This document shows positions 4,326-31,347 of a DNA stretch of 31,892 nucleotides, piece after piece. Every line of letters begins with the position of its first letter. The stretch's first letter is position 1. This DNA is from a virus, in IMG/VR virus record IMGVR_UViG_3300011013_000050, positions 1 through 31,892 of that record. One strand, given 5' to 3'. The position numbers were made by a program, and so were the translations under genes. The notes beneath the pieces were generated by a model that searched no databases, was not told the DNA's origin, and saw only the letters and a program-made list of their open reading frames with translations.

Positions 4326-4353
4326 AAAAAAGGGTCACCCAAATTGGTGACCC
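4324..4353 (-). terminator. Intrinsic terminator read on the minus strand
   Basis: GGGTCACC (4332-4339) pairs with GGTGACCC (4346-4353) around a 6-nt loop. On the minus strand the stem is followed by eight T, a canonical Rho-independent terminator. On the plus strand the stem lacks a following T run but directly follows the fibre operon stop, so it may also weakly end that operon. Confidence 0.85.
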
Positions 4354-4510
4354 ATTCGCTCAATAATTAAGCATAATTTAAAAATCATGTGATTTTATAC
4401 TGCAATCCGTAGTAAGTAGCCCCCAACCGTTCGCTCTTACCTACCAGTCCTATATCTGACTGATTTACCCCAATAGCATCCCGCCCTTAGTCATTTAATA
4501 TTAATCTATG
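4324..4510 (-). ncRNA. Candidate independent small RNA, about 187 nt
   Basis: A sigma70-type promoter (4517-4545) and an intrinsic terminator (4324-4353) delimit a minus-strand unit with no ATG-started gene of meaningful length (only a 9-codon frame). Its central part (about 4400-4490) is clearly richer in G+C than the surroundings. Read on the minus strand it can form AUCAGUC/GACUGGU (7 bp with one G-U, 8-nt loop), GGUAAG/CUUACU enclosing a G-rich loop, AAAATCA/TGATTTT (4381-4396), GCTTA/TGAGC, and the terminator hairpin. It lies between convergent gene ends. A regulatory RNA is one reading; the other is that the GC-rich part is a relic of a protein gene (see findings). No known RNA family was recognised, and a tRNA cloverleaf could not be built. 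Confidence 0.45.
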
Positions 4511-4516
4511 TGATAC

Positions 4517-4545
4517 ATTCTACATGATTAAATTTAACATGTCAA
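4517..4545 (-). promoter_or_regulatory. Sigma70-type promoter TTGACA-17-TAGAAT
   Basis: On the minus strand TTGACA (4545-4540) is followed after exactly 17 nt by TAGAAT (4522-4517). It starts 7 nt beyond the porin-like gene's stop, so it cannot serve that gene and instead points at the small unit 4324-4510. Its first 17 nt, TTGACATGTTAAATTTA, are identical to the promoter at 29325. Confidence 0.65.
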
Positions 4546-4551
4546 GTGTTT

Positions 4552-5670
4552 TTAATCCCAATAATAAAAAAGTTGCACAGCACCATAAATCCATTTATTA
4601 TGATTAAATCTTTGTTGCTCTTTTAATGGCAACCAAACCGCACCTTCGACCAGATGAATTTCTGCACCTAAAACAAAATTATTCCAATAAAATTTATTTC
4701 CTATGCTAATATCACGTGCATATAAAGAGTTTATTCTATCATTTTTCGTATCAACAGTCAAGCGAGCATATTTGTTATGTGCCACTTTAAATTGATTATA
4801 TGCTATATATGCTTGCCACCGTTCATTAATATCATAGTCAAGAAATAAAGAAAAAGCATAAGCACTATCAAAGAATTTTTCTTGTGGTATACTAACATTC
4901 ATTACTTCTGCTGAAAAACTCCATCCGTTACCATCGTATATTATACCTAATTGTGTATAATCTTGGTCTGCAACAGAATTAACATTATTTCCAGTAGGTG
5001 ACATCCTTGATATAGTATGATTCCCTCGTATTGTCCAATAACTATTACTAGAACGCCAATTAAAGAAAAAATTCTGTATATCACCAAAATTTTCTGTTAA
5101 TTTTACTTCGTCTGTATTCAACAAAAATCTAGCAACAAGCGAAGAATTGATAACTTTTGGTGAACCTATTGTATATCCTACTTCAAAATCATTATATAAA
5201 ACACTTAAACTTATACCATTAACGCTTTGAAACAAAGAACGTAATGGTTCAAAATATATTCCTTGTGCCGGAATTAATGTAGGACGTAACAATGGGTTAT
5301 TAAGAATTTCATTATATAATCCATGTTGATTTTTAATTCTTCCGGTTCGAAGTTTAATACCCCAATTTTCATCAAATTTATGTGTTAATGTTAAAAACCC
5401 AAATGTTAAAATATCATCTATATTATAAGTATCTTCTAAATTCATAGCTAATGTAAATCGCAACCAATCATGTGGACTATAATTTACAGAAAACCCTGCT
5501 ATTGGTCTAGGTTTTAACGGTCTGCCTGCGGAAGATAATATATATTCATAACCTGCATACGCAAAAAAATCTGTATTACATTTTATATTTTGTAAAAATG
5601 TACTATTACATTCATCAGATAATATATTAAATGGAAATGACAACAACAAAAAAAATATTATTTTTTTCAT
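4552..5670 (-). CDS. Porin-like outer-membrane beta-barrel protein
   Basis: The 372-residue product starts with a clear Sec signal peptide (MKK, hydrophobic IIFFLLLSFPFNIL, cleavage near residue 18). The mature part alternates short polar turns with aromatic-ended beta strands, and contains LRTGRIKNQHGLYNEI followed by RPTLIPAQGIYFEPLRSL, a conserved stretch of bacterial porin-like barrels whose constriction region reads G-R-x-K-x-x-x-G-L-Y-N-E. The C-terminus is aromatic (LFYYWD), as in many barrel proteins, though the last residue is not aromatic. The start overlaps the stop of the upstream PstS-like gene (ATGA), so the pair is translationally coupled. In a phage this would insert into the host outer membrane, altering permeability or receptor access. 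Substrate specificity cannot be read; outer-membrane location is inferred with good confidence. Confidence 0.75.
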   Translation of the reverse strand: MKKIIFFLLLSFPFNILSDECNSTFLQNIKCNTDFFAYAGYEYILSSAGRPLKPRPIAGFSVNYSPHDWLRFTLAMNLEDTYNIDDILTFGFLTLTHKFDENWGIKLRTGRIKNQHGLYNEILNNPLLRPTLIPAQGIYFEPLRSLFQSVNGISLSVLYNDFEVGYTIGSPKVINSSLVARFLLNTDEVKLTENFGDIQNFFFNWRSSNSYWTIRGNHTISRMSPTGNNVNSVADQDYTQLGIIYDGNGWSFSAEVMNVSIPQEKFFDSAYAFSLFLDYDINERWQAYIAYNQFKVAHNKYARLTVDTKNDRINSLYARDISIGNKFYWNNFVLGAEIHLVEGAVWLPLKEQQRFNHNKWIYGAVQLFYYWD

Positions 5671-6131
5671 ATATTATCCAATTTAATTATTGTAATATTT
5701 CCGTGTTCACCATGTATAGCAAATTTATTTAAACTAGATAAATACCCTATAGAAAATGGTGTCAATGAAACTTTTAATAACATTTCGTCATCTGTTTTAG
5801 CAAATTTTACACCAGATGATTGACCCGTATATGTACGTGATTCAAGTAATTGTTTGTATCTATAACTGGTTATTTGAAACCATTCCCATAAAAAATTTTT
5901 ATGAATTATAGAATTAAAAGGTCTAGTATATACGGTAATTATATGTCCATTATACCATTTCGTCATTTTGCGAGTAAATATATTACGCATAATTATAACA
6001 TCCAAATCGTGAAACTGCTGTTTCGGATATATTATATTAGTTGTAGCATATGAAACATTATAATATATAAAAATATTACTTACGATGAGACATACTGCGA
6101 TACATTTCTGAAAGGGTTCTTTCCAATTCAT
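5667..6131 (-). CDS. Short PstS-like periplasmic binding-domain protein
   Basis: The 154-residue protein has a signal peptide (positive MNWKEPFQK, hydrophobic core, SYA cleavage at about residue 29). The rest matches the C-terminal lobe of short phosphate-ABC-transporter-substrate-binding-like proteins: NIFTRKMTKWYNGH, a TRPFNSIIHKNF segment, SYRYKQLLESRTYTGQ and a final SLTPFSIGYL that corresponds to the V-x-x-T-P-G-A-I-G-Y motif of that family. It is much shorter than a full PstS (about 320 residues) but similar to the stand-alone 130-160 residue bacterial versions. The initiation codon lies inside the upstream gene (56-nt overlap), and choosing it gives the complete signal peptide. No permease genes accompany it, so transport is unlikely; a binding or sensing role with the adjacent barrel is inferred. 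Confidence 0.65.
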   Translation of the reverse strand: MNWKEPFQKCIAVCLIVSNIFIYYNVSYATTNIIYPKQQFHDLDVIIMRNIFTRKMTKWYNGHIITVYTRPFNSIIHKNFLWEWFQITSYRYKQLLESRTYTGQSSGVKFAKTDDEMLLKVSLTPFSIGYLSSLNKFAIHGEHGNITIIKLDNI

Positions 6132-6423
6132 TTACTTGATCTTGTAATTCTTTATTTGATTGTGTTTGTTCTTTCATAGATCGTTCTATAAATGTATTTA
6201 TATAACGATCTGTAGTTTTTAATTCTTTAAACCTTGTAGTATTATATTTTTCATTCATAATAACTTTAGTTTCGAGACGTACTTGATTGCTATTTAAGTT
6301 AACCCACCCAGTTACCAACCCTCCTAATCCTATTAAAGTAGAAACTGTTATAGTTAAAATATCCTTAACGGTAATACCACCAGTTTTTTCTTTAATTATC
6401 GTATGTAATTCTTCATTTTTCAT
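6076..6423 (-). CDS. Membrane-anchored coiled-coil protein, unknown function
   Basis: No family was recognised. The 115-residue product has an N-terminal polar helix (residues 1-18), one hydrophobic segment (ILTITVSTLIGLGGLVTGWV, about residues 22-41) and a long charged C-terminal region with heptad-like spacing (QTQSNKELQDQVNELERTLSEM), so a single-span protein with a coiled coil. Its start overlaps the stop of the upstream multispan gene (ATGA) and its end overlaps the PstS-like gene by 56 nt. Topology resembles phage holin-accessory or spanin-like proteins as well as adaptor subunits of membrane sensors; neither can be preferred from sequence alone. Confidence 0.6.
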   Translation of the reverse strand: MKNEELHTIIKEKTGGITVKDILTITVSTLIGLGGLVTGWVNLNSNQVRLETKVIMNEKYNTTRFKELKTTDRYINTFIERSMKEQTQSNKELQDQVNELERTLSEMYRSMSHRK

Positions 6424-7082
6424 AATATGGCCTTGTCAGTTTTTGCCAATTTTAATACTATCCAATAAATACCTATAAGAGAACTATATTCTATAAGTTT
6501 AAATACATGTGCTATTTGAAAACCCAAATCTAAGTTATTAATTGAAGCAAATGCCATAATTGTGTGTAATAATATGCCTAATGACATAAATGGTATAAAC
6601 GTATATGGTGGAAATAAATATATTCTTTTTCTATATAATATAATGGCCGCCCCTATCCACAACAACATTAATATAAAATCAATTGGTCTATGAATAAATT
6701 CATAGTGGTGATATCCAAGATTAAATATATCATATGAGTATAATACAACACCTATAGATAATAAAATTATAGGTAAAACACCAATAAAAAATAATAACAT
6801 AGAATCCCAACTTTGAACTTTTTTTGGTATAATAGATATTGTTAAAAAGCAGAAAATCAACGAAAACCTAGAAAATGTCCATGAAAAAGTACCCCAATAT
6901 TCTGTAGAAAAAATTGATAATATTATATGAATAATATCTGATACAGATGCCGTTAAAAACCCCATTGCCATTATAATAGAATATGCACCTTTTATTTTTT
7001 TATAATTAATATAAAATAAAATCATAAGAAGAAAAACTGAACAAATTTCAAAAATTATATGTGTAATTGCTGCTATTGCCAT
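6420..7082 (-). CDS. Multispan membrane protein resembling MASE-type sensor domains
   Basis: The 220-residue product consists almost entirely of hydrophobic segments, six to seven by eye, separated by short loops. The arrangement of an early H-x-x-F-E helix, a second N-Y-K-K-I-K loop, D-I-I-H-I in the third span and W-T-F-S-R-F-S in the next resembles membrane sensor domains of the MASE3/MASE4 type found at the N-terminus of bacterial signalling proteins. No output domain (GGDEF, kinase, chemotaxis) follows; the protein ends shortly after the last span. It is the first gene of the minus-strand cassette, with an AAAGGGA ribosome site and a TATAAATA motif 21 nt upstream. A sensory role is only inferred from resemblance; a holin-like or transport role is possible. 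Confidence 0.5.
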   Translation of the reverse strand: MAIAAITHIIFEICSVFLLMILFYINYKKIKGAYSIIMAMGFLTASVSDIIHIILSIFSTEYWGTFSWTFSRFSLIFCFLTISIIPKKVQSWDSMLLFFIGVLPIILLSIGVVLYSYDIFNLGYHHYEFIHRPIDFILMLLWIGAAIILYRKRIYLFPPYTFIPFMSLGILLHTIMAFASINNLDLGFQIAHVFKLIEYSSLIGIYWIVLKLAKTDKAIL

Positions 7083-7103: not shown

Positions 7104-7115
7104 TATTTATAAATA
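7104..7115. promoter_or_regulatory. Palindromic bidirectional late-type promoter motif
   Basis: TATTTATAAATA is a perfect 12-nt palindrome and therefore presents TATAAATA, the T4-type late promoter consensus, on both strands. The minus copy lies 21 nt before the start at 7082 and the plus copy 30 nt before the ATG at 7146. Its position between two divergent genes supports function. Confidence 0.5.
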
Positions 7116-7145: not shown

Positions 7146-7697
7146 ATGGCAAAATATAAATATAATTCCCGTGGCACTACCGTTACTGAACAAGAAGTAA
7201 ATGGTGTTACGGATACAGAAGTAAATAATCGTAGCATTCCAAATGCTCCAGGCAATCGTGATTGGAATGATTATGTGGAATGGCGTGATGTGGGTGCAAA
7301 TACCGCTGATCCATTCATGCTTTTATCTGAAATAAAAGATGCAAAAAAATCAGAACTTAAAGGTGCGTGTCATGATGAAATTATAAGTGGTTTTACTTCA
7401 ACTGTTGTGATTGCTTCTGATGTTGCCTCGCCTTTTGATTATGAAAGTGCACCACAAGATCAACGAAACCTACTTGGTGCCAGTGGTACTACAATTAATA
7501 TAAATTTTACTGTTATGGATGGTGGTATTAAAAAGCGTGTCTCGCATACACCAGTTGAAATCAAAGCAGTATATGATGAAGGTGTTGACCGTATTGGTAA
7601 AATGAAAGATGATTTGTATCTTTATTATGCCGATGTAGATGCTGCCATTGATGAAGCTGCGGTAGACGCAATTGTTTGGGCTTATCCTAAAGTATAA
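7146..7697 (+). CDS. DUF4376-like tail-fibre accessory protein
   Basis: The 183-residue product has an N-terminal half with NRDWNDYVEWRDVGANTADP, a motif usual in short proteins encoded with fibres, and a C-terminal half that looks like DUF4376: a KDAKKSELKGACHDEIISGF helix, a beta segment with FDYESAPQDQRNLLGAS, and a last region with IKAVYDEGVDRIGKMKDDLY and a D-A-A-I-D-E-A helix. It is analogous to the 172-residue gene at 3807 but divergent. An AGGAGAACAAA ribosome site precedes the ATG. It is a single-gene unit between a palindromic late-type promoter and a bidirectional terminator. Fibre assembly or tip function is inferred from the family. Confidence 0.68.
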   Translation: MAKYKYNSRGTTVTEQEVNGVTDTEVNNRSIPNAPGNRDWNDYVEWRDVGANTADPFMLLSEIKDAKKSELKGACHDEIISGFTSTVVIASDVASPFDYESAPQDQRNLLGASGTTININFTVMDGGIKKRVSHTPVEIKAVYDEGVDRIGKMKDDLYLYYADVDAAIDEAAVDAIVWAYPKV

Positions 7698-10210: not shown

Positions 10211-12481
10211 GTGAAAGAAATCAGTATCATAAAGAGAGATGGTAGTCAAGAAACATTAGATATTGAAAAAATTCATAAATGTGTTTTTTGGGCTTGTGAA
10301 GAACTAACAAATGTGTCACCATCAGATATTGAAATGCGTTCGAGCATTCAATTCTGCAACAAAATGAAAACCGAAGATATTCATGAAGTTATGGTTAAAG
10401 CTTCGGCAGATTTAATATCAGAAGAACAACCCAATTATACATATGTCGCCGCAAGATTGCGATTATTTGACCTTAGAAAAAAGATTTTTGGGCAATTTCA
10501 GCCTATTCCACTTCATGAAGTGGTGAAAAATAATACAAAAAGAAAAATTTATGATTCAACTATATTAAACGCATTTAATGATGACGAATGGGGGAAATTA
10601 GATAAAATAATTAAACACAAAAGAGACTTTCATTTTACTTACGCTGGTATAGAACAAGTAATTGGAAAATATCTTGCACAAAATCGTGTGAAAAATACAG
10701 TCTTTGAAACACCACAAATCATGTATATTATGATTGCTATTACATTATTCAAAGATTATCCTATAGATACTAGACTAAAATATATAAAAGAAGCATATGA
10801 TTCTTTTTCTAAATTTGAAATTAGTTTATCTACACCAATATTAGCAGGATTGAGAACACCACAAAAACAATTTAGTAGCTGTGTCACGATTGAAACTGAT
10901 GATAGTTTAGATGGCCTTATAGCTTCGTCAGGTTCTATTGTAAAGTATGTTGCAAGCAAGGCAGGCATTGGTATAGGTGCAGGAAGAATTCGTGCTCTAG
11001 GGTCTTCTATAAGGGCTGGTGATGCATATCATACGGGTATTACACCATTCTATAAATATTTTGAATCTTCAGTTAAATCTGTTAATCAAGGTGGAGTTAG
11101 AAACGCTTCAGCTACACTACATACAATGATATGGCATTATGAGATTGAAGATATCTTAGTTCTTAAAAATAATAAAGGAACCGATGATAATCGTGTTAGA
11201 AAACTGGATTATAGTATTCAAATATGTAGACTATTTTATGAAAGATTATTAAAAAACGAAGATATAACACTATTTTCGCCCCATGAAGTAAAAGATTTAT
11301 ATGAAGCATTCTTTATAGATCAGGATAAGTTCAGAGAATTATACCTTCATTATGAACAAAAAACTGGTATTATGAAGAAAAAAATATCAGCAAAAAAATT
11401 ATTTTCATTATTAGCTACTGAAAGAGCCGAAACTGGGAGAATTTATATAATGAATATTGATCATGCTAATGATCATAGTTCTTTTCTTGACCCGATTCAC
11501 ATGAGTAATTTATGCCAAGAGATTAGCTTGCCTACTACACCAATGAATAATGTAGTTGATCCAGAAGGTGAAATTGGACTTTGTACTTTATGTGCCGTGA
11601 ATCTTGGGATAATAAAAAGTTTAAATGAGTTTGAACGAATTAATGAAATTGCTGTCAGAATATTAGACTCCATACTTTCGTATCAAGATTATCCAGTCCC
11701 AGCAGCAGAAAAAGCAACAAAAAGAAGGTCATTAGGTATTGGGTTCACTAACTTAGCATATTTTTTAGCAAAAAATGATGTTAAATATAGCGATGGTAGG
11801 GCTTTACGTTTGGTTGATGAAGTATCAGAAGCACACCAATATTGGTTAATTAAAGCATCATGTAAATTAGCTAGAGAATTTGGATCATGTGAATATTTTG
11901 ATCGTACCAAATACTCAAAAGGTATATTACCAATAGACACATACAATAAAAATGTCGATGTATTAACTAATGGTAGAAAATATAATTATGATTGGGAAGC
12001 ACTAAGAGATGAAATAAAGGAATCTGGTATGCGTCATTCCACCTTATCATGTCAGATGCCATGTGAAAGTTCTTCATTAGTAATTAATTCTACGAATGGA
12101 ATAGAACCACCCCGTTCATTTATTACCGTAAAACAAATGAAACACGGTGTTTTAAAACAAGTTGTGCCAGATTATATTCATTTAAAAAATAAATATGAAC
12201 TACTTTGGAATATGAAAAGTAATACAGGATATCATCAAATAGTGGCTATTATGCAAAAATATTTTGATCAATCTATTTCATGCAATTTTAATTATGATCC
12301 TAGTAATTATGATGAAGGTAAAATACCAACATCAGAAGTATTAAAAGACATGTTATATGCATACAAAATAGGAATAAAGAATTTTTATTACCATCAAACT
12401 AGAGATTTACGTGAAGAAGTATTAGAGACTTCATCAGAAGATAATAATGATGGATGTGCTGGTGGTGCCTGTGCAATATAA
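10211..12481 (+). CDS. nrdA: Ribonucleoside-diphosphate reductase class Ia, alpha subunit
   Basis: NrdA reduces ribonucleoside diphosphates to deoxyribonucleotides, here supplying phage DNA synthesis with the NrdB encoded 2.5 kb downstream. The 756-residue product has an N-terminal ATP-cone (IIKRDGSQETLDIEKI), substrate-site Cys224 (SSCVT), the catalytic trio Asn433-Cys435-Glu437 in NLCQE, Cys458 in GLCTLCAVNLG, radical-transfer tyrosines Y726/Y727 (NFYYHQTR) and the C-terminal redox pair Cys749/Cys754 in DGCAGGACAI. All E. coli key residues are present, and length is normal (E. coli 761). Translation starts at GTG with an AAGGAG site 5 nt upstream. The gene is uninterrupted by introns, but a homing-endonuclease gene follows after 2 nt. 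Confidence 0.97.
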   Translation: MKEISIIKRDGSQETLDIEKIHKCVFWACEELTNVSPSDIEMRSSIQFCNKMKTEDIHEVMVKASADLISEEQPNYTYVAARLRLFDLRKKIFGQFQPIPLHEVVKNNTKRKIYDSTILNAFNDDEWGKLDKIIKHKRDFHFTYAGIEQVIGKYLAQNRVKNTVFETPQIMYIMIAITLFKDYPIDTRLKYIKEAYDSFSKFEISLSTPILAGLRTPQKQFSSCVTIETDDSLDGLIASSGSIVKYVASKAGIGIGAGRIRALGSSIRAGDAYHTGITPFYKYFESSVKSVNQGGVRNASATLHTMIWHYEIEDILVLKNNKGTDDNRVRKLDYSIQICRLFYERLLKNEDITLFSPHEVKDLYEAFFIDQDKFRELYLHYEQKTGIMKKKISAKKLFSLLATERAETGRIYIMNIDHANDHSSFLDPIHMSNLCQEISLPTTPMNNVVDPEGEIGLCTLCAVNLGIIKSLNEFERINEIAVRILDSILSYQDYPVPAAEKATKRRSLGIGFTNLAYFLAKNDVKYSDGRALRLVDEVSEAHQYWLIKASCKLAREFGSCEYFDRTKYSKGILPIDTYNKNVDVLTNGRKYNYDWEALRDEIKESGMRHSTLSCQMPCESSSLVINSTNGIEPPRSFITVKQMKHGVLKQVVPDYIHLKNKYELLWNMKSNTGYHQIVAIMQKYFDQSISCNFNYDPSNYDEGKIPTSEVLKDMLYAYKIGIKNFYYHQTRDLREEVLETSSEDNNDGCAGGACAI

Positions 12482-12483
12482 TT

Positions 12484-13341
12484 ATGAGAAAGTGGACAAC
12501 AATAGAATTTATCGAAAAAGCATATAATATACATAAAGACAAATATGAATATCCTGATGAATATGTTAATTCTTACACCAAAATAAGAATTATATGCAAA
12601 ACACACGGCGAATTCTGGCAAAGACCTGTATCACATATAACAAATAAACAAGGATGTCCATCATGTGTTAAAAATAAAAAACTATCAACAATAGAATTTA
12701 TCGAAAAAGCATATAATATACATAAAGACAAATATGAATATCCTGATGAATATGTTAATTCTTCAACCAAAATGAGAATTATATGTAAAACACATGGTGC
12801 GTTTTGGCAAACACCAAATCATCATCTATGTGGTCATAATTGCCAAAAATGTACATTAGAAAAATTAGCACTAAATAGAACACATGATACCTCTATTTTT
12901 ATTACAAATGCAAATAACATCCATAATAACAAATATGAATATCCTGATGAATATCATACAAATCAATCAAATGGCTGTCCCAACTGTAATAAACATTATT
13001 ACTCAAAAATTTCTATAAAATGGATGAATAAAATAGCAGAAAAAGAAAATATTCATATTCAACATGCAGAGAATGGTGATGAATATTCAATATCAGGAAC
13101 CAAATATAAAGCAGATGGATATTGTAAAGAAACTAATACCATATATGAATTTTACGGAGATATTTGGCATGGCAATTTAGAAATATATACTGAAGATGAA
13201 CAATGTCATCCATTTTCTGATGAATCTGCCGGTAGCTTATATATAAAAACCATGCAACGTGAACAGAAAATAAAAAACTTAGGATATAATTTAGTAACAA
13301 TTTGGGAAAATGATTATGTGCATTGTCATTTGGGAACATGA
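12484..13341 (+). CDS. Free-standing homing endonuclease, DUF723 repeats plus VSR-like nuclease
   Basis: The 285-residue product has N-terminal repeats of about 63 residues with F-I-E-K-A-x-x-I-H-x-x-K-Y-E-Y-P and I-I-C-K-T-H-G-E-F-W-Q, ending in a CPSC knuckle, the pattern of DUF723, a DNA-binding zinc-type repeat common in phage endonucleases. The C-terminal domain, YKADGYC then YEFYGDIWHGN and a later TIWEND, is a PD-(D/E)xK/VSR-like nuclease. Two repeats are complete and a third has lost its middle. The ATG at 12484, 2 nt after nrdA, is preferred; an upstream ATG at 12454 would overlap nrdA. It has no clear ribosome site and probably depends on coupling to nrdA. Such genes spread by cutting genomes lacking them, at sites near the insertion. 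Confidence 0.85.
   Translation: MRKWTTIEFIEKAYNIHKDKYEYPDEYVNSYTKIRIICKTHGEFWQRPVSHITNKQGCPSCVKNKKLSTIEFIEKAYNIHKDKYEYPDEYVNSSTKMRIICKTHGAFWQTPNHHLCGHNCQKCTLEKLALNRTHDTSIFITNANNIHNNKYEYPDEYHTNQSNGCPNCNKHYYSKISIKWMNKIAEKENIHIQHAENGDEYSISGTKYKADGYCKETNTIYEFYGDIWHGNLEIYTEDEQCHPFSDESAGSLYIKTMQREQKIKNLGYNLVTIWENDYVHCHLGT
12497..12763 (+). repeat. Perfect 78-nt direct repeat within the endonuclease gene
   Basis: Positions 12497-12574 and 12686-12763 are identical over 78 nt and 189 nt (63 codons) apart, encoding the N-terminal part of two consecutive DUF723 repeats. The identity marks a recent in-frame duplication or gene conversion. Confidence 0.9.
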
Positions 13342-13344
13342 TTA

Positions 13345-15003
13345 ATGAAAAATATTCTAATAGAAATATCTAAAGGAAAGCCATTAGGAATGCCTAAAAA
13401 AATATTATCTAATAAAGTATTACATCAATATTTAATAGATAATTCTTCATTTTTATCAAATCCCACAACATTAGAACGATTATATTGTGTGCTTAATAAT
13501 ATAAAAGAAGTTCCTTTATGTACATACTGTAAAGAAAAGCCTGTAACATTTAAGCCGGGATTAAAAGGTCCGCGAAAATATTGTAGTAATGCATGTGTGA
13601 ACAAATCATTGAAAGGTAAAAAAGGTAAAATACGTGCAGAAAAAGCAAATATAACCAAAAATATTCCAAATGAAGAAGGAATAACACCATTACAAATTAA
13701 TACAAAAAATAGATTAAAAACATTATCACAGGTAAATAAAGAGGGTAAAACAGGATTTAAAAAACTTGGCGAAAAAACAAAAAGAACAATGAAAAATACC
13801 ATAATTGATGGAAAAAATTTATATCAAATAAATGGAAAAAATCATTCTACATTAATTAAGAACCAAAAAGAACAATATGGTATAAGTTGTATTGGAATAG
13901 CAAAAAGATTACGTGATAAACCCAATAAAATTTCCTTGTTTGACATGTATAAAAAAAATTTATTAAAGGATGATATAACTGTTTTACTTTCATCTAATGA
14001 ATATGTAGCTAATTATAATACACAAACACTTATAGATTATAAATGTAATATATGTAATTATAAAGATAGTGCATATTTAGAAAATATATTTTGTAAAAAC
14101 TGTCATCCTTCACAATCAAAACAACAAATTCTAATATCAAAATTTTTGCAAGAATTTTATGACAAAAGAATAATTAATAATTGTCGTACTATTCTCGATT
14201 CAAAAAAAGAAATTGATATATTTTTACCCGATATTAATACAGGGATAGAATATAATGGTGTTTTATATCATTCTTATGGAAAAAGTTCATCAGAAAAATT
14301 GAATAATTATTTGATGGAAGATAAATTTTATCATGTAAATAAAACAAAAGAATGTTTAGAAAAAAATATAACTTTATATCATATTTTTGAAAATGAATGG
14401 TTAGATAGTAGAAAGAAAGATATTTGGAAATCTATATTATTAAATAAAATTATAAAAATATCTGAAACAATTTATGCTAGAAAATGTACTATAAATATTG
14501 TTGAAAATAATGAAGCATCTATTTTTTTAGAACTTAATCATTTACAAGGTAAGATAAATGGCAAACATATTGGATTATATTATAAAAATGAATTAATGTC
14601 TATAATGACATTTGGGAAATCCAGATTTAATAAAAAATATGATTGGGAATTGTTACGATTTTGTAATAAAAAATATCATAATGTAGTAGGTGGTGCAAGT
14701 AGATTATTAGCATATTTTAAAAAAACAAAATCGGGGACAATAATAAGTTATTCAGATTTAAAAATAAGTAATGGCAATTTATATAAGAAATTAGGATTCG
14801 AATATATGGGAAATACGCCACCAAATTATTTTTATATAAAATTACCGGATTTAACATTTCATTCTAGGTTAGAATTTCAAAAACATAAATTACAAACAAA
14901 ACTCAAAATATATGATGAAAATGTTTCTGAATTCCATAATATGATAAAAAATAATTATAGAAGAATATGGGATTGTGGAAACCAAATTTGGTGTATAAAT
15001 TAA
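13345..15003 (+). CDS. Free-standing homing endonuclease, large VSR-like type
   Basis: The 552-residue product has a N-terminal zinc knuckle (CTYC ... CSNAC, residues about 59-83), a second Cys4 ribbon (CNIC ... CKNC), a nuclease core with EIDIFLPDINTGIEYNGVLYH and FENEW (VSR/EDxHD-like), and a C-terminal acetyltransferase-like region typical of this family: FLELNHLQGKINGKHIGLYY, MTFGKSRFNKKYDWELLRFC, GGASRLL and SYSDLKISNGNLYKKLGF. This domain order is that of large phage homing endonucleases often placed between phage metabolic genes. It starts 3 nt after the preceding endonuclease gene and ends 18 nt before nrdB. It has very low G+C, lower than nrdA and nrdB. Target site unknown; intron-less nrdA or nrdB alleles of relatives are the obvious candidates. 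Confidence 0.82.
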   Translation: MKNILIEISKGKPLGMPKKILSNKVLHQYLIDNSSFLSNPTTLERLYCVLNNIKEVPLCTYCKEKPVTFKPGLKGPRKYCSNACVNKSLKGKKGKIRAEKANITKNIPNEEGITPLQINTKNRLKTLSQVNKEGKTGFKKLGEKTKRTMKNTIIDGKNLYQINGKNHSTLIKNQKEQYGISCIGIAKRLRDKPNKISLFDMYKKNLLKDDITVLLSSNEYVANYNTQTLIDYKCNICNYKDSAYLENIFCKNCHPSQSKQQILISKFLQEFYDKRIINNCRTILDSKKEIDIFLPDINTGIEYNGVLYHSYGKSSSEKLNNYLMEDKFYHVNKTKECLEKNITLYHIFENEWLDSRKKDIWKSILLNKIIKISETIYARKCTINIVENNEASIFLELNHLQGKINGKHIGLYYKNELMSIMTFGKSRFNKKYDWELLRFCNKKYHNVVGGASRLLAYFKKTKSGTIISYSDLKISNGNLYKKLGFEYMGNTPPNYFYIKLPDLTFHSRLEFQKHKLQTKLKIYDENVSEFHNMIKNNYRRIWDCGNQIWCIN

Positions 15004-15021
15004 ATAGGAACGAAACAAATT

Positions 15022-16164
15022 ATGTATAAAGTATTTGAACAAAATAAAAAATCACATTTAGAACAACCTATATTTTTTGGCGAAACACCAAATATAGCAA
15101 GATATGATGTACAATCATATCCTATTTTTGAAAAATTAATAGATAAATCATTAGGTTTTTTTTGGTTACCACAAGAAGTGGATCTTACCAAAGATCAAAA
15201 AGATTTTAAGGAATTATCTGACGGCGAAAAGCATATCTTTTTATCAAATTTAAAATACCAAATTCTTCTTGATAGCATTCAAGGTAGAGCACCAAATATA
15301 GCATTTTTACCTATTGTTTCTGATCCAACACTTGAAACATTAATAGAAACTTGGTCATTTTTCGAAGGAATACATTCAAGAAGTTATACTCATATTATAA
15401 GAAATTTGATTCCTAATCCCAGTGAAGTATTTGATAATATAACAAATATTAAGGAAATTACAGAAAGAACAGTATCAGTAACAAAATATTATGACGAATT
15501 AATTAAATATTCATCTATGTATAATTTATTTGGCTATGGCTCTTTTACTGTCATGCAAGAAACTGGTAAGTCATTAACTATTACTATAACACCTTATATA
15601 TTGAAAGAATTGTTATATAAAACTATGATATCAGTTAATATACTAGAAGGTATCAGATTTTATGTGTCTTTTGCATGTTCATGGGCATTTTGTGAATTAA
15701 AAAAAATGGAAGGAAATGCTAAAATAATTGAGTTAATTGCTCGTGATGAAAATATACATTTAGCTACAACACAAAACATAATTAAACATTATCGACTTTC
15801 AACCGATACTGATATTATTAAAATCGTTAAAGAAAACGAAAATTTTGTTTATAAAATGTATGATGATGCAATAAATGAAGAAAAAGCATGGGCAAAATAT
15901 TTATTTAAAGATGCTGCCATGATAGGTTTAAATACCGAATTATTATGTGATTATGTAGAATATATGGCAAATAAACGTATGAGAACCATAGGTTTAAAAC
16001 AGCAATATAATCAACCACATAATCCGTTATCTTGGACAAATAACTACTTAAAATCAGATAATAAACAAGTAGCACCCATGGAAACCGAAATCTCAACATA
16101 TATACAAGGAGGTGGTTTAAAATCAGACATCGACGAAAATACATTTGACAATTTCGAATTATAA
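15022..16164 (+). CDS. nrdB: Ribonucleoside-diphosphate reductase class Ia, beta subunit
   Basis: NrdB carries the diiron-tyrosyl radical that NrdA needs. The 380-residue product has iron ligands Asp84, Glu115 and His118 and radical Tyr122 in ETWSFFEGIHSRSYTHIIRN, at exactly the E. coli numbering, and the second ligand set Glu209, Glu243 and His246 in NILEGIRF and ARDENIH. The C-terminus ends DIDENTFDNFEL, an acidic tail with the final aromatic-x-Leu used to bind NrdA. Presence of Tyr122 indicates a tyrosyl-radical class Ia enzyme. An AGGAACG sequence 13 nt before ATG is a weak ribosome site. The gene is separated from nrdA by two endonuclease genes and followed without any gap by a third. 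Confidence 0.97.
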   Translation: MYKVFEQNKKSHLEQPIFFGETPNIARYDVQSYPIFEKLIDKSLGFFWLPQEVDLTKDQKDFKELSDGEKHIFLSNLKYQILLDSIQGRAPNIAFLPIVSDPTLETLIETWSFFEGIHSRSYTHIIRNLIPNPSEVFDNITNIKEITERTVSVTKYYDELIKYSSMYNLFGYGSFTVMQETGKSLTITITPYILKELLYKTMISVNILEGIRFYVSFACSWAFCELKKMEGNAKIIELIARDENIHLATTQNIIKHYRLSTDTDIIKIVKENENFVYKMYDDAINEEKAWAKYLFKDAAMIGLNTELLCDYVEYMANKRMRTIGLKQQYNQPHNPLSWTNNYLKSDNKQVAPMETEISTYIQGGGLKSDIDENTFDNFEL

Positions 16165-17265
16165 ATGAAAACAACAAAACAATTTATTACAGAAGCACAA
16201 ATAAAACATACAAACAAATATGAATATCCAGACCCATATATTAATTCTGCAACTAAAATAAGAATTATATGCAAAAAACATGGCGAGTTTTGGCAAACAC
16301 CTAATAAGCACTTATCAGGATGTGGTTGTAATAAATGTGGTGGTAGTAAAAAATTATCAACAAAAGAATTTATACAAAAAGCAACATTAATACATGGAAA
16401 ACAATATGATTATTCAAAAACAGTTTATATTAATAGTAATACTAAATTAAGAATTATATGTAAAAAACATGGCGAGTTTTGGCAAATTCCCTATAATCAT
16501 TTATTAAATAATAACTGTCCAAAATGCTCTGGCGTTTATAAACCAACAACAAAAGAATTTATACAAAAAGCAAGATTGAGACATAATAACAAATATGAAT
16601 ATCCTGATAAATATGTTAATGCCACTACTAAAATACGAATTATATGTAAAGAACACGGAGAATTTTTACAAACACCAAATTCACATTTAAATAAACAGGG
16701 CTGTCCATTATGTAGTAGACAACATTTAAAAAATAATATACTTTTTAATAGTAAACATTTTATACACAGAGCAAAGTTAATTCATGGTAATAAATATGAA
16801 TATAAAGAAAAATATACAGGTATTAAAAATAAGTTAAAAATTATATGTAAAAAACATGGGGAATTTTTACAAACCCCAGATAGTCATATTAATGGAAAAG
16901 CTAATTGCCCAAAATGTTCAAAAAATACTTATTCACAAAGTTCTATATTTTGGCTAGAAACAATAATGAAAAAAAAGGGAATATTCATTCAGCACGCAGA
17001 GAACAAAGGTGAATATAATATTCCCACTACAAATTATAAAGCTGATGGATATTGTGAAGCCAATAATACAGTTTATGAATTTTATGGTGATTGTTGGCAT
17101 GGCAATTTAGAAATATATAATGAAGATGAACAATGTCATCCATTTTCTGATGAGTGTGCCGGAAATTTATATATAAAAACCATGCAACGTGAACAAAAAA
17201 TTAAAAAATTAGGATATAATTTAGTAACAATTTGGGAAAATGAATTCAAACACATTTCGTTATAA
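16165..17265 (+). CDS. Free-standing homing endonuclease, four DUF723 repeats plus VSR-like nuclease
   Basis: The 366-residue product is a paralogue of the 12484-13341 gene. It has four complete DUF723 repeats (each with F-I-x-x-A, H-x-x-K-Y-x-Y, IICKKHGEFWQ-type and CxxC elements) followed by the same nuclease: NYKADGYC, YEFYGDCWHGNLEIY, EQCHPFSDE and TIWENEF. The last 70 residues are almost identical between the paralogues, the repeats less so. The ATG follows the nrdB stop codon directly (TAA-ATG), so expression relies on nrdB translation. It probably targets the nrdB region of related phages. Compared with this copy, the nrdA-linked one has lost one and a half repeats. Confidence 0.85.
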   Translation: MKTTKQFITEAQIKHTNKYEYPDPYINSATKIRIICKKHGEFWQTPNKHLSGCGCNKCGGSKKLSTKEFIQKATLIHGKQYDYSKTVYINSNTKLRIICKKHGEFWQIPYNHLLNNNCPKCSGVYKPTTKEFIQKARLRHNNKYEYPDKYVNATTKIRIICKEHGEFLQTPNSHLNKQGCPLCSRQHLKNNILFNSKHFIHRAKLIHGNKYEYKEKYTGIKNKLKIICKKHGEFLQTPDSHINGKANCPKCSKNTYSQSSIFWLETIMKKKGIFIQHAENKGEYNIPTTNYKADGYCEANNTVYEFYGDCWHGNLEIYNEDEQCHPFSDECAGNLYIKTMQREQKIKKLGYNLVTIWENEFKHISL

Positions 17266-29411: not shown

Positions 29412-30224
29412 ATGAAAGATGAATTAAATGATATTCGTGATTTGAAATGGCAGTTGATTAGTCGAAATGAACAATTAAGTGAAGAATTTATTGTTGAACA
29501 TAAGGATTTAGTATATTGGTATTATATTAGTCAATATCAAAAATTAAGTGAAGAATTTATTATTGAACATAAGAATTTGATAAAATGGAAATGGATTTGT
29601 ATTAAACAGAAGTTAAGTGAAGAATTTATTCGCGAACATAAAGATTTGGTAGATTGGTATTGGATTAGTATTAAACAGAAGTTAAGTGAAGAATTTATTG
29701 TTGAACATAAGGATTTGGTAAATTGGCATTGGAGTAGTCGATATCAACAATTAAGTGAAGAATTTATTCGCGAACATAAAGATTTGGTAGATTGGCATTC
29801 TATTAGTAAGTATCAAAAATTAAGTGAAGAATTTATAAAAGAATTCGATCTTACTATAAGTGAAGATAATTGGAATTATGTAACTGATGAAATCAAAATT
29901 GAAAAATTAATTGATAGTGGATATGAAGTTAAAGATGGATATACATATGGATATAAATCCGTTCGTGAAGACATGTATTCAGTATATGATTTTAATATAA
30001 GATATGATATTGGAATTATTAATGATTGGCATTATGATCCAATTTGTAATAATGAAACTAGTTTTGGTTTATCAATGTGGTATGATACGAAAAAAGCAAA
30101 AGAATATTATGAATGCGGCAAATTGTTGAAAATTCGGGTTAAGATTTCTGATGTTAAGGCATTAACAACAAAATATAAAAAAGTACGATGTAGTCAATTG
30201 GAAGTCCTTGAAATAATAGATTAA
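29412..30224 (+). CDS. 23-residue-repeat protein with shared C-terminal domain (short paralogue)
   Basis: The 270-residue product contains five complete and one partial repeat of a 23-residue unit with consensus QKLSEEFIREHKDLVDW-x-x-I-S-x-x, about residues 17-145. Regular Leu, Phe, Ile and Trp spacing suggests a helical solenoid. The remaining 125 residues (EDNWNYVTDEIKIEKLIDSG, YGYKSVREDMYSVYDF, SFGLSMWYD, KVRCSQLEVLEI) form a separate domain resembling small domains attached to repeat proteins in phages and giant viruses. A GGTGGAG ribosome site precedes ATG. Function unknown; protein-protein interaction is likely. The longer gene downstream is a paralogue with an almost identical C-terminal domain. 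Confidence 0.75.
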   Translation: MKDELNDIRDLKWQLISRNEQLSEEFIVEHKDLVYWYYISQYQKLSEEFIIEHKNLIKWKWICIKQKLSEEFIREHKDLVDWYWISIKQKLSEEFIVEHKDLVNWHWSSRYQQLSEEFIREHKDLVDWHSISKYQKLSEEFIKEFDLTISEDNWNYVTDEIKIEKLIDSGYEVKDGYTYGYKSVREDMYSVYDFNIRYDIGIINDWHYDPICNNETSFGLSMWYDTKKAKEYYECGKLLKIRVKISDVKALTTKYKKVRCSQLEVLEIID

Positions 30225-30234
30225 TGGTGTAGAT

Positions 30235-30282
30235 ATGAAAGAAGATATGAAAGAAGATATGAAAGAAGATATGAAAGAAGAT
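30235..30282 (+). repeat. 12-nt tandem repeat ATGAAAGAAGAT, four copies
   Basis: Four perfect copies encode MKED four times at the very start of the long repeat protein. Each unit contains an in-frame ATG. Confidence 0.95.
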
Positions 30283-31347
30283 AGTAAGGATTGGGTATCT
30301 ATGAGTATTAAACAACAATTAAGCGAAGGATTTATTCACAAACATAAGGATTTAGTAGAGTGGACTTTTATTAGTCAATTTCAAAAATTAAGTGAAGAAT
30401 TTATTCGGGAACATAAGGATTTGGTAGATTGGGGATCTATGAGTATTAAACAACAATTAAGTGAAGAATTTATTCGGGAACATAAGGATTTAGTAGAGTG
30501 GTCTTTTATTAGTCAATTTCAAAAATTAAGTGAAGAATTTGTTCGCGAACATAAGGATTTGGTAAATTGGAAACAAATTAGTATTAAACAAAAATTAAGT
30601 GAAGAATTTATTCGGGAACATAAGGATTTGGTAGATTGGTTTTTTATTAGTAAGTATCAAAAATTAAGTGAAGAATTTATTCGTGAACATAAGAATTTAA
30701 TGGATTGGGACTATATTTCTCAGTTTCAAAAATTAAGTGAAGAATTTATTATTGAAACTGAGAATTTAGTAAATTGGGAATATATTAGTCAGCAGCAACA
30801 ATTAAGTGAAGAATTTATTCACGAACATAAAGATTTGGTAGATTGGCATTCTATAAGTAAGTATCAACAATTAAGTGAAGAATTTATTCACGAACATAAA
30901 GATTTGGTTAATTGGTATTCTATTAGTGATTATCAACAATTAAGTGAAGAATTTATAAAAGAATTTGGTCTTACTATAAGTGAAGATAATTGGAACTATG
31001 TAACCGATGAAATCAAAATCGAAAAATTAATTGATAGTGGATATGAAGTTAAAGATGGATATGTATACGGATATAAATCTGTTCGTGAAGACATGTATTC
31101 AGTATATGACTTTAATGTAAAATATGATATTGGAATTATAAGTGATTGGAAATATGATCCGATATGCGAGAATGAAAATAGTTTTGGATTATCTATGTGG
31201 TACGATAAAGCAAATGCAAAAGAATATTATGAATATGGCAAATTGTTAAAAATTCGAGCTAAGATTTCTGATGTTAAGGCATTAACAAAATATAAAAAAG
31301 TACGATGTAGTCAATTGGAAGTCCTTGAAATAATAGCATATTTATGA
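30235..31347 (+). CDS. 23-residue-repeat protein with shared C-terminal domain (long paralogue)
   Basis: The 370-residue product begins with a fourfold MKED repeat, then nine complete and one partial copies of the same 23-residue LSEEFI-EHKDLVDW unit as the preceding gene, then the same 125-residue C-terminal domain. Between the paralogues, the C-terminal domains differ at only a few residues (for example TYGYKS and VYGYKS), so the duplication is recent, and the number of repeats has changed since (six versus ten). Four in-frame ATG codons in the MKED tract leave the exact start uncertain; no strong ribosome site is visible. The stop overlaps the next start by 4 nt. Function unknown. Confidence 0.75.
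   Translation: MKEDMKEDMKEDMKEDSKDWVSMSIKQQLSEGFIHKHKDLVEWTFISQFQKLSEEFIREHKDLVDWGSMSIKQQLSEEFIREHKDLVEWSFISQFQKLSEEFVREHKDLVNWKQISIKQKLSEEFIREHKDLVDWFFISKYQKLSEEFIREHKNLMDWDYISQFQKLSEEFIIETENLVNWEYISQQQQLSEEFIHEHKDLVDWHSISKYQQLSEEFIHEHKDLVNWYSISDYQQLSEEFIKEFGLTISEDNWNYVTDEIKIEKLIDSGYEVKDGYVYGYKSVREDMYSVYDFNVKYDIGIISDWKYDPICENENSFGLSMWYDKANAKEYYEYGKLLKIRAKISDVKALTKYKKVRCSQLEVLEIIAYL

Follow-up and report, generated by a model that had tools for sequence, protein, structure and literature searches.

The window analysed here is the IMG/VR record IMGVR_UViG_3300011013_000050, which is 31,892 nt in length and is a fragment of a phage genome. Four overlapping genes, designated A to D, were found on its minus strand between positions 4552 and 7082, as had been claimed in the initial annotation. 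These genes, their neighbors and an adjoining element are as follows:

6420–7082, minus strand, gene A, 220 aa
6076–6423, minus strand, gene B, 115 aa
5667–6131, minus strand, gene C, 154 aa
4552–5670, minus strand, gene D, 372 aa
3807–4325, plus strand, flanking gene, PHROG 8983
7146–7697, plus strand, flanking gene, DUF4376, tail fibre PHROG 1348
4332–4545, minus strand, directly after D, putative small RNA gene with a TTGACA-17-TAGAAT promoter-like site, a 195-nt fold and an intrinsic terminator

ATGA overlaps of 4 bases join A to B and C to D, while the frames of B and C share 56 bases. The flanking genes, one of PHROG 8983 and one of DUF4376/tail-fibre type, agree with the earlier description of neighbors on the opposite strand. 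A late-type motif had also been assigned to the cassette, and a single copy of TATAAATA does lie at 7104–7111, 21 bases upstream of A. However, this motif occurs 13 times in the window against 14.9 ± 4.0 times in shuffled sequence, which is the level expected by chance, and a late promoter over the cassette was dropped as a candidate for this reason. Directly after D, the TTGACA-17-TAGAAT site is the top promoter-like site of the region (11/12), with the strong terminator at 4353–4332. The 195-nt stretch gave a fold z of −2.2 and a search of Rfam with it returned nothing above threshold. Judged by these sequence features, the element may encode a small RNA or may instead form a non-coding tail of the cassette.

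Elsewhere, the window encodes tail fibres, ribonucleotide reductase, homing endonucleases, topoisomerase II, RNA ligase and RIIB-like proteins, and it apparently belongs to a large lytic phage. Across 12454–17265, the ribonucleotide reductase genes alternate with three HNH/homing-endonuclease-type genes (12454–13341, 13345–15003 and 16165–17265). Two adjoining genes at 29412–31347, which carry repeated stretches of phrog_22019 and, at the C-terminus, a part resembling the RIIB lysis inhibitor, are apparently repeat-bearing paralogues. The codon use of the cassette correlates with that of the phage at 0.90 and its GC3 is 0.167 against 0.157. As base composition and codon use thus match those of the phage, the cassette does not resemble a recent acquisition.

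Protein D is predicted to be an outer-membrane porin of the general-porin type, and the earlier porin-like reading is upheld by both profile and predicted structure. While its match to Pfam Porin_4 (E = 4.5e-4) lies under the cut-off of Pfam, D is found by a porin profile built from bacteria only, with window sequences excluded, at E = 3.4e-21. The AlphaFold2 model (mean pLDDT 76) has about 15–16 strands, and Foldseek matched it to OmpT of Vibrio cholerae (5oyk, E = 1.2e-10) and to OmpC/OmpF (E about 1e-10 to 1e-9). Weaker matches include porins of the OprO/OprP type, and another match is a phage fibre–OmpC complex (9wcb). D thus shows the signal peptide and the 16-strand-type barrel of a general porin, and it retains in part the family loop GRIKNxxGxYN...RP...Q.IYF...RS.

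Protein C is predicted, from sequence and model, to be a secreted periplasmic protein with a signal peptide and a single PstS-like lobe. It is found by a bacteria-only PstS-lobe profile, again with window sequences excluded, at E = 1.5e-16 (-Z 1000). The leading Foldseek matches in the PDB for its AlphaFold2 model (pLDDT 84) are phosphate-binding proteins (PstS, E = 1e-4), and the model superimposes on residues 80–190 of 4q8r (PBP-1) with a Z of 12.7 and 2.3 Å over 105 residues. The PstS-like reading in the initial annotation therefore holds for the periplasmic-binding-protein fold and not for a complete two-lobe PstS, as the 154 residues of C align to the middle lobe alone. Bacterial members of the lobe family similarly cover 96–187 of the 267 positions of the Pfam profile. 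No lipobox cysteine was seen in the signal peptides of C or D. An HMMER family alignment to 1twy shows DNxPLHxxF at the usual place of the canonical RxxxSGT phosphate motif and, since the single lobe has no such motif there, the phosphate-type sensing suggested earlier is left unsupported. The conserved WDRxxFSGTG motif of the bacterial family was considered as a PstS phosphate site whose absence from the phage would mean lost phosphate binding; this was dropped when alignment to a solved PstS put the site elsewhere. The residues W96, P89 and P108, which show no or almost no variation in bacteria, are missing from the phage protein.

The remaining two proteins are placed at the inner membrane by hydropathy. 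Protein B has one N-terminal transmembrane segment at about residues 22–40, followed by a probable coiled coil. It gave only coiled-coil-type noise in Pfam and PHROGs and has no relative in the phages or viral contigs searched, making it an orphan. Protein A has about 6–7 transmembrane helices and matches Pfam MASE3 (PF17159) over residues 7–199 at E = 2.9e-5, its 24.2 bits being under the curated cut-off of 31 bits. This match was absent from reversed A and from six shuffles of A, and in a genome-style scan of the record MASE3 was matched solely at A (E = 1e-6). With a home-made profile of 30 bacterial MASE3 domains, A ranked first over 500 shuffles, but weakly. Since composition bias makes the profile E-value poor, A is called MASE3-like at most, and it is tentatively read from its sequence as a stand-alone MASE3-like membrane sensor domain. 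It stops at 220 aa and is not fused to a kinase, a cyclase or any other output domain. Among the bacterial MASE3 matches listed from 299 sampled genomes, the open frames are at least 550 aa, bar a single frame of 320 aa close to the end of a contig, and a stand-alone sensor domain of the size of A is therefore unusual.

A weak plasmid match led to a locus of Halomonas with three genes in a row: a PstS-like gene, a porin gene that it overlaps, and a gene for a GGDEF-EAL protein. Pairwise comparison of the proteins of this locus with those of the phage gave E values of 1e-9 for D and 2e-12 for C. A scan of bacterial genomes then yielded 42 loci, with independent matches of C and D to 39 and 43 bacterial ORFs, respectively. 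Both phage proteins are highly diverged, with identities of about 14–29%. The porin of this trio was present in 28 of the 398 Pseudomonadota genomes sampled (about 7%), and the taxa with the operon include Gammaproteobacteria, Nitrosomonas, purple sulfur bacteria and others. In a set of 73 bacterial loci chosen by porin, a few of which are one locus fetched twice, 68 have a PstS lobe next to the porin and 60 have a third gene of dCache/GGDEF type, for a membrane c-di-GMP enzyme. Most of the loci that lack a partner lie where a contig ends or where only a short stretch was fetched. As the porin alone was used to pick the loci, with no regard to lobe or enzyme, this adjacency is an independent result. 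The usual order is PstS lobe, porin and enzyme, with the first two reversed in a few loci. Pfam analysis of four of the third genes gave dCache_3-(PAS)-GGDEF-EAL, and by its domains such a dCache-GGDEF(-EAL) protein should make or degrade c-di-GMP. One bacterial member of the porin family scored against Porin_O_P (E = 0.0013), and the loop of the bacterial porins is near-invariant (GRIKNPxGxYNxTRDVxxTRPSIxLPQSIYFD). A description of the trio was not found in open-licence literature on porins, PstS or phosphate binding with c-di-GMP or phages, or in that on porins encoded by phages, and it appears to be undescribed so far.

As in bacteria, the PstS-lobe and porin genes of the phage adjoin on one strand. 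No GGDEF or EAL domain was detected anywhere in the 31.9-kb record; this is itself a fragment, so the enzyme could be encoded elsewhere in the phage. Because bacteria-only profiles find both C and D, and the two families are adjacent in bacteria, C and D share descent with the conserved trans-envelope c-di-GMP operon. In a tree constructed to find a donor of the cassette, D fell on a very long branch (3.6 changes per site) with no firm placement. As for A, BLAST against 24 genomes with the trio gave no match. MASE3 genes beside a bacterial PstS/porin pair were also sought as a possible ancestral arrangement, and none was present in short stretches around 30 MASE3 matches.

No close relatives of A to D were detected in viral contigs or phage records, which is weak evidence of absence given that the viral scans required exact short motifs. 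A joint alignment of the phage and bacterial lobes proved too diverse to be used in a further scan of viral sequence. One further phage, the 258-kb jumbo phage NCTB (LT598654.1, complete genome), surfaced only as a weak match with a bacterial PstS-lobe query. It carries the following pair, joined by an ATGA overlap:

4884–5339 of the NCTB stretch examined, BN7874_180, PstS lobe, 151-aa ORF, bacterial PstS-lobe profile 2.9e-10
BN7874_179, porin, 395-aa ORF, Porin_4 2.1e-5

The trio porin profile gave the NCTB porin a marginal score (0.015); from its position and class, this porin is likely a member of the trio porin family. By sequence, the NCTB pair and the C/D pair show no close kinship. A scan of the complete NCTB genome found no GGDEF, EAL or MASE3, as compared with 101, 55 and 1 matches, respectively, in a bacterial control genome. 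The deposited annotation lists both proteins of the pair as hypothetical, and its start for BN7874_180 (5088) is about 200 bases too late, with the signal peptide lost. It should also be noted that an Acb1-like anti-CBASS gene (PF23474, E = 4e-11; 4424–4873 of the NCTB stretch) lies directly upstream of the pair and may hint at a counter-defence neighborhood. The initial annotation knew of no described phage system with the composition of the cassette. This stands as far as open-licence papers are concerned, in which none was found, and is qualified by NCTB, which carries the pair as hypothetical proteins. Unrelated neighbors in all homologous loci would, by the same annotation, have spoken against its reading; the pair was instead found together both in NCTB and in 68 of the 73 porin-selected bacterial loci.

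Since C and D match the trio, and NCTB has the pair but no GGDEF, EAL or MASE3, it is tentatively proposed that the cassette represents the input side of a bacterial trans-envelope sensing module, adapted to the phage and lacking the enzyme. The trans-envelope composition and sensing role suggested earlier gain support from the kinship of C and D to an operon with a membrane c-di-GMP enzyme. In the bacterial host, the PstS lobe would pass a signal linked to the porin on to the dCache sensor, much as NspS does to MbaA. The phage C/D pair would enter the infected cell's envelope, there competing with or replacing the host pair. Porin input would then be cut off from c-di-GMP output, or be redirected to A and B, with A as a sensor lacking an output and B as a coiled-coil anchor forming a new inner-membrane end. 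The outcome would be a cell locked in a surface, biofilm or motility state favorable to the phage. Uncoupling or rerouting of the input is proposed because the record holds no GGDEF or EAL protein, and such a decoy or rerouting role is the most likely reading as two phages keep the lobe and the porin but not the enzyme. It should be borne in mind that gene adjacency in bacteria represents association and not mechanism, and that the divergence of C and D, with the loss of W96, P89 and P108, means that partner recognition may be lost. A wider proposal, that phages have more than once taken the input half, periplasmic and outer-membrane, of an undescribed porin-coupled c-di-GMP system to rewire or silence host surface sensing without its enzyme, and that A and B extend it here to a four-protein trans-envelope device, is put forward as possible though rather doubtful.

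The main rival is superinfection exclusion or outer-membrane remodeling, in which D would enter the outer membrane and C would plug or gate it, altering receptors or DNA entry for competing phages. Porins are common phage receptors, and lambdoid porin genes replace OmpC. The general-porin fold of D, the phage fibre–OmpC complex among its matches and the position of the cassette between tail-fibre-type genes are all in keeping with such a role. The tail-gene neighborhood may nevertheless be due to chance, and this reading, which is considered unlikely, explains neither why two phages that lack close kinship both retain a PstS lobe beside the porin nor the presence of A and B. The same PstS fold, with cyanophage PstS structures among the matches, together with the OprO/OprP-type porins and the Porin_O_P score, could instead point to auxiliary genes that boost phosphate or anion supply during infection in the way of cyanophage pstS. 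This is improbable, since a single lobe would be unable to close around a ligand alone, the family has DNxPLHxxF opposite the phosphate site of PstS, ABC permease genes are absent near by and in bacteria the pair is partnered by a c-di-GMP enzyme and not by a transporter.

It is equally improbable that the C/D pair was captured from a host and is drifting without a function, A and B being unrelated neighbors. High divergence and the orphan status of B would fit drift, but the four frames are uninterrupted, overlap closely and are fitted to the codon use of the phage, and the same kind of pair is retained by another phage. Least probable, and very much so, is an unusual lysis pathway, an idea also mentioned in the initial annotation, in which A would be a holin-like protein, B an inner-membrane spanin and C/D its outer-membrane partner. 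Rz/Rz1 genes often overlap, and the inner-membrane anchor and coiled coil of B and the long B/C frame overlap are reminiscent of such a pair. However, C has no lipobox as would be seen in the outer-membrane lipoprotein of Rz/Rz1, C and D are kin to a signaling operon, A resembles MASE3 and not a holin family, and no endolysin gene is adjacent, leaving the lysis idea without support.

The decoy or rerouting reading remains the preferred one. An unexplained phage cassette is now tied to a widespread and apparently undescribed bacterial operon. The trio of porin, half-PstS and c-di-GMP enzyme is an obvious candidate for a role in outer-membrane sensing, and the phage cassette would offer a natural enzyme-free version for learning what the bacterial trio senses. 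If it is true that the phage pair blocks or reroutes the trio, phages would attack c-di-GMP signaling from the exterior of the cell.

With regard to known systems, the cyanophage PstS proteins (7xg7, 7xg8) share the PstS fold with C; they are two-lobe phosphate binders, whereas C is one lobe lacking the canonical site. The Lc protein of the lambdoid phage PA-2, an outer-membrane porin encoded by a prophage conversion gene, resembles D as a phage-encoded porin and differs, by description only, in having no PstS lobe. Similar in layout to C/D is the NCTB pair, with its ATGA-overlapping PstS-lobe and Porin_4-type genes in a genome without GGDEF, EAL or MASE3, but it has no A or B, adjoins the Acb1-like gene and is distant in sequence. 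The tripartite YfiBNR/TpbB c-di-GMP system also places one protein in each layer of the envelope around a diguanylate cyclase, and the likeness lies in this arrangement; it is set apart, by description, by its folds, with YfiB being a lipoprotein of OmpA type and YfiR having a fold other than that of PstS. In the NspS-MbaA system of Vibrio cholerae, through which polyamines are relayed, a periplasmic binding protein, NspS, associates with the GGDEF-EAL membrane protein MbaA (PMC8967002). The binding protein of the trio differs in being one PstS lobe, with a porin in the middle, and the phage record is without the enzyme, but the bacterial trio likewise pairs a secreted binding-protein-fold gene with a membrane GGDEF-EAL protein that has a periplasmic sensor domain.
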